A stretch of DNA of 64,000 nucleotides from an uncultured Rhodospirillales bacterium (GTDB lineage Bacteria > Pseudomonadota > Alphaproteobacteria > ATCC43930 > CGMCC-115725). The translations under genes and the position numbers were made by a program. Positions 30,853 to 33,540 of the stretch are shown here, one piece after another (position 1 is the first letter of the stretch; the number at the start of each line of letters is the position of its first letter). The stretch is from the NCBI GenBank assembly GCA_903822185.1, contig CAIJOA010000045.1:1-64000 (forward strand), read 5' to 3'. The notes beneath the pieces are model-generated. The model saw only the letters and a list, made by a program, of their open reading frames with translations. It did not search any database and was not told the origin of the DNA.

Positions 30853-30949
30853 GAGTCCTTCGACAGGCTCAGGGTGAGGGAAAATTTCGCGCGGCCTTTG
30901 CCAAAGCAGCGCATCGCTCTCTCCTCATCCTGAGCCTGTCGAAGGGCTC
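30853..30949. repeat. Inverted pair of GTCCTTCGACAGGCTCAGG repeats
   Basis: Two 28-nt arms in opposite orientation (30853-30880 and 30922-30949) enclose 41 bp. The arm sequence, with GTCCTTCGACAGGCTCAGG at its core, is a widespread dispersed repeat of proteobacterial intergenic DNA. It occupies most of the gap between murJ and the exported trio at 31047; nothing else is recognised in this gap. Confidence 0.8.
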
Positions 30950-31046: not shown

Positions 31047-32015
31047 ATGTATAAATTCACGCGATCTGCCCTTTGGGGCGCGGCCTTCCTCGCAACATCG
31101 TTCGGTCTTTGGTCCGAGGCGCACGCCCAGGCACAGGGGCCGCGCTCGCTCGTCGAGTCGAAGGAGTCCCTCTACAACAATATCTACGTCTATAAGCAGG
31201 GCAGCTATTACGACATGACCTTCGGTTACAACCGAAGGCTCTATACCGAGAGCAGCTACAACACGCTCGACGATCGCGAATTGCCGATGTTCTACACCCG
31301 GTTCATGACGACGAGCCTGATCTACGCCAAGAATGTAACCTCGGTTCTCGAGATCGGTTTCGGCGGCGGGCGCACGAGTTGGTATCTGCATCGCTTTCTG
31401 CCCGACATGTCGGTCACGTCGGTCGAGCTCGATCCCGGCGTCGAGGCGATGGCGCGGAAATATTTCGGTATCCGCGACGAACCGAATTTCAAGATCGCCA
31501 ATAGCGACGGCCGTCTTTATCTGCAAAAGTCCAAAGACAAATACGACATCATCCTGATCGACGCCTATCGCGGCCCGTTCGTGCCATTCCATTTGCTGAC
31601 CAAGGAATTCTATCAGCTGGTCAAAGAGCATCTGAACGAAGGCGGCGTGGTCGCACAGAATGTCGAGCCTTCAACCATGCTGTTCGACAGCGCGGTGAAG
31701 ACGATTCATTCCGTCTTTCCGCAGGAAGATTTCTATCTCGCCGAAGGCAATGTCGTGACCATCGCCTATGACGGCCCGCCGCGGTCGCCTGATGAATTGA
31801 ACAAGAGCGCCGAAGACCGCACGGCGCAATTCAAGCTGCGCTATCCCCTCGCCGGCATGCTGAGTCAGCGGCGGCGTCTGCCGCCCGATATCAGCGGCGG
31901 CACGATCGATCCCAGCGCCAAGGTGCTGACGGATGATTTCGCGCCGGTCGAAACCTTGAAAGCGGTCGAGAATCACAATCGCAAATGGCCGGATCAGGAA
32001 CCGAATACTCACTAA
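31047..32015 (+). CDS. Exported spermidine-synthase-fold protein
   Basis: A 322-residue protein with a signal peptide (basic 1-6, hydrophobic 8-22, cleavage near AHA-Q28) and a SAM/decarboxylated-SAM-type Rossmann fold: VLEIGFGGGRTSW (100-112), VELDPGVEAMARKYF (126-140), SDGRLYLQ and ILIDAYRGP. It resembles the C-terminal half of fused MFS/spermidine-synthase proteins. The usual DExxYHE-type substrate motif is replaced by LDDRELPMFYTRFM, so aminopropyltransferase activity is doubtful. The partner membrane domain is encoded next (31985) with a 31-bp overlap, in the reverse order of the usual fusion. Action in the periplasm is an inference from the signal peptide. No ribosome-binding site is obvious. 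Confidence 0.8.
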   Translation: MYKFTRSALWGAAFLATSFGLWSEAHAQAQGPRSLVESKESLYNNIYVYKQGSYYDMTFGYNRRLYTESSYNTLDDRELPMFYTRFMTTSLIYAKNVTSVLEIGFGGGRTSWYLHRFLPDMSVTSVELDPGVEAMARKYFGIRDEPNFKIANSDGRLYLQKSKDKYDIILIDAYRGPFVPFHLLTKEFYQLVKEHLNEGGVVAQNVEPSTMLFDSAVKTIHSVFPQEDFYLAEGNVVTIAYDGPPRSPDELNKSAEDRTAQFKLRYPLAGMLSQRRRLPPDISGGTIDPSAKVLTDDFAPVETLKAVENHNRKWPDQEPNTH

Positions 32016-32617
32016 GCGGCGGCGCGGCGCAAGCGACGGTCCTCGGGAACGCCTTCTTCGTCGGCAGCGTGCTGATGGGCTTCGAGATGCTCGGCAGCCG
32101 CTATCTCTTTCCCTATTTCGGCGGCGGCATCGGCACCTGGGCGGGTCTTATCTCGACCGTGCTGGCGGCGCTGACCATCGGTTATTTCATCGGCGGCGCG
32201 ATCGTCGATCGCCATCCGAGCCCGCGCGTCATCGCGGTGTCAAGCGCCGTAGCTGCCGCGTATCTGGCGCTGGTGCCGGTTTCGGCCGATCCGGTGATGG
32301 AAATCATCCTCAATCGTATCGGTGACGGGCCTGCCGGGATTTTGATAGCATCGTCGATCCTGCTGCTGTTGCCGCTGTCGGTCCTCGGCACCTTCTCGCC
32401 GGTTGCTGTGCGCCTGCTGCTGCGCTCGACCGCGGAGACGGGCCGTATCGCCGGTCTCGTTTATGGCATCTCCACCATCGGCAATATCTTCGGCACGCTG
32501 TTCACGACCTTCTGGCTGATCCCGACCCTCGGATCGCGCAACATCACCTATATCTATGCCGGTGTGCTGGCGCTGTCGGCGCTGAGCATGTTCATCCTCG
32601 GCCGCGCGCGCCGATGA
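31985..32617 (+). CDS. Membrane domain of spermidine-synthase-like system
   Basis: A 210-residue membrane protein with about six helices and almost no loops. FFVGSVLMGFEMLGSRYLFPYFGGG and TIGYFIGGAIVDRHPSPR (near 60) match the N-terminal membrane half of fused MFS/spermidine-synthase proteins. Normally this domain precedes a cytoplasmic synthase in one polypeptide; here it is separate and follows it. The ATG at 31985 lies inside the end of the upstream gene. It overlaps the M28 gene by 4 bp. Transport substrate is unknown. Confidence 0.78.
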   Translation: MAGSGTEYSLSGGAAQATVLGNAFFVGSVLMGFEMLGSRYLFPYFGGGIGTWAGLISTVLAALTIGYFIGGAIVDRHPSPRVIAVSSAVAAAYLALVPVSADPVMEIILNRIGDGPAGILIASSILLLLPLSVLGTFSPVAVRLLLRSTAETGRIAGLVYGISTIGNIFGTLFTTFWLIPTLGSRNITYIYAGVLALSALSMFILGRARR

Positions 32618-33540
32618 TGCGCTCGGCCTTTCTCATCGCCGGTCTGTTGTTCGCGGGATCGGCAGTGGCGCAAACGCCATCCGCCGACGTGACGCTGTGG
32701 CAAGGCAACCGCGCTCTCGGCGATGTCGCCAAGCAAGTAGCGTTCGGCGCACGCGCGCCGGACACACCGGGCCACCAGAAGACGATTGATCTGATCACCG
32801 CCGAGTTTCGCCGGCTTGGCATTGCCGTTCAGGAACAACAGTGGAATTCGACCGTCGCCGGTCAAAACCATACGCTGACCAATCTGGTCGGCCGGCTTTA
32901 CCCGAAGAACCCCAAGCGGATTTTGCTCGGCACCCATTACGACAGCATCATCCGCGCCTATCGCGACAAGGATCATCCCGATGCGGTGATGCCGGGCGCG
33001 AATAATTCCGCGTCCGGCGTGGCGCTGCTGCTGGAAACCGCACGCGCCCTGCACGACGCCAAAGCGCCGCCGCCGGTCGGGATCGATTTCGTTTTCTTCG
33101 ATGGCGAGGAAGGGCCCTTGGCGCTGGGTGCGGGCGATCCGCATTGGCAGCCGCTGGGCTCGCCCTATTTCGTCCAGAACATCGCGACCTTCTATCCCGA
33201 CACCAAGCCGAGTCAGGCCGTGATTTTCGACATGGTCTGCGGCAGCGCGCAAAAGCTGCAGCAAGAGCAAGCATCGCTGCTCTATGCCGCCGACCAGGTG
33301 ACGAAATTCTGGAACATCGGCCGCACCTTCGCGCCGGCCTTTTACAGCAACACCCTGACCACCGCCCCGATCTATGACGACCAGTTGGCGCTGGGCGAGA
33401 TCAAGATCCCGGCTTTCCTGGTGATCGGCTTCGATTACGAGCCCTGGTTCAACACGACCCAGGATACGCCGGACAAATGTTCGGAAGCCGCAATCAACGC
33501 TGTCGGGCGCACGCTCTTCCGTTATATTTATCTGCCTTAA
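32614..33540 (+). CDS. Secreted M28/glutaminyl-cyclase-fold protein, altered metal site
   Basis: A 308-residue protein with a signal peptide (cleavage near AVA-Q20) and the M28/glutaminyl-peptide cyclotransferase fold. LLGTHYDS, PGANNSASGVALLLE, FVFFDGEEG and WFNTTQDTPDKCS mark the family. The usual metal-ligand Asp of PGANDxxSG is Asn (codon 33004-33006), and the His of the C-terminal W(W)HT motif is also Asn (33451-33453), while the first His, the Glu of GEEG and the later Asp (IFDMVCG) remain. Either the protein is inactive, or it binds metal differently. It overlaps the membrane gene by 4 bp and ends 15 bp before dapB. Confidence 0.82.
   Translation: MMRSAFLIAGLLFAGSAVAQTPSADVTLWQGNRALGDVAKQVAFGARAPDTPGHQKTIDLITAEFRRLGIAVQEQQWNSTVAGQNHTLTNLVGRLYPKNPKRILLGTHYDSIIRAYRDKDHPDAVMPGANNSASGVALLLETARALHDAKAPPPVGIDFVFFDGEEGPLALGAGDPHWQPLGSPYFVQNIATFYPDTKPSQAVIFDMVCGSAQKLQQEQASLLYAADQVTKFWNIGRTFAPAFYSNTLTTAPIYDDQLALGEIKIPAFLVIGFDYEPWFNTTQDTPDKCSEAAINAVGRTLFRYIYLP

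Follow-up and report, generated by a model that had tools for sequence, protein, structure and literature searches.

Three overlapping genes in the window (the 64,000-nucleotide stretch of DNA from an uncultured Rhodospirillales bacterium that was analysed) were found to form a conserved operon, here designated A, B and C. With moderate confidence, the products of A and B are read as halves of one SAM-dependent transferase that acts outside the cytoplasm and is most likely a methyltransferase, and the product of C as a protein that would recognise or prepare the same acceptor. The positions that a preliminary description of this DNA had assigned to the three open reading frames, all on the plus strand, were confirmed, as was the 4-bp overlap (ATGA) between B and C; A and B overlapped by 31 bp. 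The features that were located are listed in Table 1.

Table 1. Genes, predicted signal peptides and active-site positions of the trio in the window.
Feature	Position	Strand	Basis
Gene A, exported spermidine-synthase fold, 322 aa	31047..32015	+	PF01564, NF037959 and PDB matches
Putative Sec signal peptide of A, residues 1-27, inferred cleavage AHA/QAQ	31047..31127	+	Hydrophobic core followed by AxA; same in relatives
A motif I, GFGGG, residues 104-108, without the acid of GxG(D/E)G	31356..31370	+	Alignment to 3o4f (GGGDG) and 5wcj (GLGGG)
A E127, counterpart of METTL13 Glu524 (AdoMet ribose)	31425..31427	+	Alignment; PMC6109062
A D154-G155, DG motif common to METTL13 and spermidine synthase	31506..31511	+	Alignment; PMC6109062
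A D172-A-Y-R175, first Asp of DxxD kept, second replaced by Arg	31560..31571	+	Alignment; roles from PMC6109062
Gene B, six-helix half-MFS membrane protein, 210 aa	31985..32617	+	NF037959, PF07690 MFS_1, charge bias
Gene C, exported type II glutaminyl-cyclase (QC, M28) fold, 308 aa	32614..33540	+	PF04389, model, fold match
Putative signal peptide of C, residues 1-19, AVA/QTPS	32614..32670	+	Sequence; relatives
C N131, replaces zinc ligand Asp (HsQC D159, PgQC D149)	33004..33006	+	Alignment; PMC7948796
C E165-E166, counterparts of catalytic Glu201 and zinc ligand Glu202	33106..33111	+	Alignment
C D206, counterpart of catalytic Asp248 (HsQC)	33229..33231	+	Alignment
C N280, replaces zinc ligand His (HsQC H330, PgQC H299)	33451..33453	+	Alignment; PMC7948796

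With A as the query, 84,980 species genomes were scanned, and 80 loci were obtained. Besides the window, 12 loci carried A, B and C consecutively on one strand (13 in all): one in a Rhodospirillales MAG of the window's genus (L031), one in a Hyphomicrobiales MAG (L035) and ten in Bradyrhizobium (L032-L034, L036-L038, L041, L042, L044 and L045). With the start codons as chosen here, A and B overlapped in every one of these loci, and B and C either overlapped or were separated by 3-74 bp. The dN/dS ratios of A, B and C were roughly 0.06-0.45 in the pairs that were computed, well below 1, and all three genes are thus under purifying selection. Because the same operon was present in 12 other loci and dN/dS was so low, the trio is real, far beyond chance. 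The earlier proposal that the three genes are a coupled unit was therefore upheld by the neighbourhood search. That proposal had been open to two objections, that the trio might be absent from other genomes and that A might stay in the cytoplasm; the trio was found elsewhere, and A is very probably exported, as set out below.

Among 196 Bradyrhizobium genomes, a full-length C was found in 11 and a close A in the same 11, in each of which A and C shared a contig and a strand, with space for B between them. The A proteins that are accompanied by C formed a single clade in the tree of A (support 100/98), on which the presence of C required one change in 100% of the bootstrap trees. C was found in two of the 39 genomes of the window's family, both of them members of the window's genus, and in one of the 385 genomes of its class, the window's own. 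This patchy distribution suggested horizontal spread. A was present as a single copy in the window's genome, and the GC content was modestly lower over A (0.57). A PHROGs search gave no match for A, B or C, and scans for promoters and terminators returned chance-level results only. The neighbours of the trio were housekeeping or lineage-specific genes, with no recurrent neighbour that hinted at a substrate. Between murJ and A (window 30860-30942) lay an inverted pair of TCGACAGGCTCAGG[GA]TGAG. The genome contains this sequence 16 times in exact form, in several cases as inverted pairs with a spacing of about 60-80 bp; it is a dispersed palindromic repeat.

C was missing from other lineages that carry A and B, in which an exported SGL propeller was encoded as the third gene. 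Since the third gene differs between lineages, A and B work without C as an obligate partner. A gene for an exported SGL/SMP-30 beta-propeller was observed after B in L040, L051, L055 and L057 and before the fusion in L056, and DUF2891 genes were observed near A in five split loci (L003, L033, L039, L040 and L043; the Pfam match was checked for L040). Neither the DUF2891 gene nor the SGL propeller was common to the trio clade.

The NCBIfam model NF037959, named fused MFS/spermidine synthase, matched B over positions 6-184 (3.2e-26) and A over positions 290-480 (1.2e-24), and both proteins cleared its 40-bit cut-off. B corresponds to the N-terminal end of the model and A to its C-terminal end, so that the gene order in the window is reversed, as the preliminary description had stated. 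Its suggestion that splitting is unusual was not borne out. The loci comprised 28 A>B pairs, 11 B>A fusions, 24 loci with separate B>A genes (among them L061, possibly a fusion broken by a frameshift) and 20 with no B beside A. Separate B>A pairs were also found in public plasmid records, in which each half is annotated as fused MFS/spermidine synthase. Splitting of the membrane/spermidine-synthase-like protein is thus ordinary, split B>A pairs being as common as fusions in this sample and annotated on public plasmids. In the tree of A, the A>B order was essentially one clade, whose sister was a fusion. The fused proteins, like the window, combine an MFS-like membrane part with a spermidine-synthase-like part and have the export segment and the A motifs in common with it; they differ in being one polypeptide with the membrane part first, whereas the window has two overlapping open reading frames in reversed order plus a third gene. 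The window's A-B pair is accordingly a split variant of the NF037959 family and not a fused member. The split B>A pairs in L127 and L129, on Xanthomonas and Pseudomonas syringae plasmids, lay beside an annotated transglycosylase gene and beside genes with annotations of secretion or transfer components.

Consistent with the earlier prediction that A and C are exported, both proteins began with hydrophobic N-termini ending in AxA sites. In every one of the 63 cases where B adjoins A, whether as a fusion or as a separate gene, a hydrophobic segment directly preceded the A domain; in each of the 11 fusions this segment, together with an AxA site, lay between the membrane and soluble parts. The preliminary description had held that the synthase half gained its signal peptide; the fused relatives, all of which carry an equivalent segment, contradict this. 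The 20 cases in which no B adjoins A were reduced to 18 usable ones after two that were cut by contig ends had been excluded, and the segment was lacking in 10 of the 18. These 10 fell into two clades, corresponding to about two independent events; the association between B and export counts gene neighbours only, and B-like domains occur elsewhere in several of the genomes whose A is cytosolic. Individual exported relatives of A carried twin-arginine motifs (L047, L051 and L055; by eye also L057) or a lipobox (L092). On the evidence of hydrophobicity, motifs and their consistency among relatives, A very probably works outside the cytoplasm, which agrees with the location originally proposed for it. 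Many A proteins of the trio clade, and the C protein of the window, were predicted to start with Gln after cleavage at the AxA site (for A, window 31047-31130), and such a residue would be a possible cyclase substrate.

The charge bias expected from the positive-inside rule placed both ends of B in the cytoplasm (N-in/C-in) in 24 of 24 sequences, and the segment that follows B in the fused forms therefore leads out of the cytoplasm. Read from sequence, the simplest account is that the A domain would lie outside the cytoplasm in every member of the B-linked family, the window's A having a signal that would correspond to the linker segment in the fusions. PF07690 (MFS_1) matched 16 of 24 B relatives, with a best value of 6.4e-8. 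The model of a fused relative comprised six to seven helices (20-218), a low-confidence linker and a soluble domain from residue 258. A search of the B profile against the PDB returned no relative by sequence, and in the fold search with the fused model the match list was filled by the spermidine-synthase domain, so that the fold of B was barely probed.

A matched PF01564 (5.9e-12), and its profile matched spermidine synthases in the PDB, with METTL13 as the second-best entry (1.6e-12). METTL13 superposed on the model of the fused relative at 2.1 Å over 186 residues with 26% identity; the fold list for that model was led by spermidine synthases, with higher Z and more residues than METTL13. 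The acid of the GxG(D/E)G motif, which is needed for decarboxylated SAM (PMC10349129), was absent from the window's A and from all of the approximately 80 relatives that were inspected. The C-terminal domain of METTL13 (PDB 5wcj) is, like A, related to spermidine synthase, has the same GGG in motif I and presents Glu524, a DG motif and Asp575 at the positions of E127, D154-G155 and D172; METTL13 depends on both Glu524 and Asp575 for its activity as an N-terminal methyltransferase (PMC6109062). D172 was invariant across the set, as were the SAM-binding motifs. METTL13 differs from A in that it is human and cytosolic, has no membrane partner and methylates the N-terminus of eEF1A (PMC6109062), and its Asp577 is without a clear counterpart in A. 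Judged by these residues, a methyltransferase would be favoured over an aminopropyltransferase for A, because the acids of spermidine synthase are lost, the counterparts of METTL13 Glu524 and Asp575 are kept and METTL13 itself is matched.

C matched PF04389 (M28; 4.1e-23), and its model (pLDDT 82.9, pTM 0.86) was closest in fold to solved bacterial type II QCs (Z about 35), which were also its closest relatives by sequence. The zinc ligands of QCs are an Asp, a second acid (Glu or Asp) and a His (PMC7948796; PMC11312887). The bacterial enzymes PgQC (6qql) and TfQC (6qro; PMC7948796) resemble C in fold, in being exported and in the catalytic Glu and Asp, but they keep the three zinc ligands, whereas C invariantly has Asn at two of these positions. 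In all 13 trio members, the zinc-ligand positions were occupied by Asn131, Glu166 and Asn280, and H108, D110, E165, E166 and D206 were conserved, so that the pocket was invariant apart from the two conserved Asn residues. The description of C as an exported glutaminyl-cyclase fold held for the fold and for the export; since only one of the three zinc ligands is kept, the term glutaminyl cyclase is a fold assignment only. C looks repurposed and not decayed, because these residues are invariant in all 13 members. Two further residues beside the pocket motifs, the cysteines C209 and C289, were also invariant in 13 of 13 (window 32614-33540). In L049, an A>B pair outside the trio clade, a QC with all of the ligands was encoded just upstream of A, and the QC fold is thus linked to A-B in a second lineage.

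The nearest experimental precedent for A-B is, by analogy of architecture, the fungal protein NHMT (AN4663 of Aspergillus nidulans). This ER-resident protein joins a membrane domain of seven helices to a spermidine-synthase-like domain, and it methylates secreted LPMOs at their N-terminal histidine (PMC10349129). Truncation of the membrane part abolished this mark, and the membrane domain has been reported in filamentous fungi only (PMC10349129). In both NHMT and A-B, a membrane domain of several helices goes with a spermidine-synthase-like domain in which the GxG(D/E)G acid is missing, and both are placed in a secretory compartment; likened by architecture, the six helices of B and the export segment of A would together be the counterpart of the NHMT membrane domain. 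In contrast to A-B, NHMT is a single fungal chain with proven activity, and no QC-fold partner has been reported for it. It follows from NHMT that SAM-dependent chemistry by such an architecture is possible in an exported compartment. The expectation that SAM-type substrates do not occur outside the cytoplasm, on which the preliminary description had relied, therefore has a published exception in the ER (PMC10349129).

Other explanations were weighed against the transferase reading. It is distinctly unlikely that A is an extracytoplasmic aminopropyltransferase which makes polyamines, or attaches them, at the cell envelope. The spermidine-synthase fold, the Pfam match and the leading place of spermidine synthases by Z in the fold list are all in keeping with such an enzyme, but none of the approximately 80 relatives has the GxG(D/E)G acid, and of the two DxxD residues of spermidine synthase that concern putrescine (Asp173 and Asp176) the trio A proteins keep only the first (D172), the second being Arg (R175). 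Furthermore, A scored far below the equivalog cut-offs (52 versus 249.55 bits for TIGR00417 and 107 versus 304 bits for NF003380), and decarboxylated SAM would be needed outside the cytoplasm as well. The amine modification of envelope molecules that had been offered as a guess is disfavoured by the same loss of aminopropyltransferase residues. It is also unlikely that A is a non-catalytic protein that binds SAM or a nucleoside, with B and C as a sensor or transport module and with no transfer reaction. The loss of the spermidine-synthase substrate residues from A and of zinc ligands from C would allow for repurposed binding proteins; the invariance of the SAM-binding motifs and of D172, whose METTL13 counterpart is essential for catalysis, argues against this explanation.

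A doubtful but somewhat more probable alternative concerns C, which may be an active QC that either dispenses with the classical zinc site or uses metal bound in the second M28 site; the operon would then combine N-terminal cyclisation with a SAM-dependent step. The counterparts of the catalytic residues (E165 and D206) are invariant together with H108 and D110, work on a tick QC, as treated in PMC7948796, suggests that metal dependence may not be universal, L049 combines an A-B pair with a QC that has every ligand, and the Gln with which many trio A proteins are predicted to begin would suit such an activity. Against it stand the Asn residues at two of three zinc-ligand positions in 13 of 13 members and the loss, by replacement of Asp with Asn, of the ligand that the second site shares with the first. 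For the same reason the pyroglutamyl role suggested earlier is doubtful. That A, B and C are neighbours by descent only, with unrelated functions, is very unlikely. Although A-B lineages that lack C and have an SGL propeller in third place are what this explanation would lead one to expect, the gene starts are overlapping or near-contiguous in 13 of 13 loci, the surroundings differ between genera and A and C co-occur perfectly in Bradyrhizobium, both being confined to the same 11 of 196 genomes.

In the preferred reading, A and B as halves of one transferase served by C, A would be exported, would have the spermidine-synthase fold and would bind SAM rather than decarboxylated SAM. B would stay in the inner membrane and serve A, either as its anchor or as a passage for SAM or the product. 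The acceptor would probably be an exported protein or peptide, perhaps at its N-terminus, by analogy with NHMT and METTL13. C, an exported QC fold that has lost the normal zinc site while keeping a strictly conserved pocket, would recognise or prepare the acceptor of A and would not be a standard glutaminyl cyclase. The operon, its conservation, the export signals, the topology bias and the residue changes were computed, and it is from these that we infer methyl transfer, periplasmic SAM, the acceptor and the roles of B and C. A more specific form, in which the half-MFS protein delivers SAM to an exported methyltransferase of spermidine-synthase fold to which the N-termini of exported proteins are presented by a zinc-free partner of QC fold, is speculative and on balance improbable.

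The annotation fused MFS/spermidine synthase is a wide one, and a literature search found no study that assigned a function to a bacterial protein of this name. These results indicate that the name is misleading, since the catalytic domain is exported and lacks the residues of spermidine synthase. If SAM chemistry does take place in the bacterial periplasm, a route of SAM supply would be needed, for which B is a candidate. The trio is a small, testable unit, in which C provides a QC fold with a changed yet conserved metal site. If the proposed reading is true, the trio may chemically tag exported proteins.
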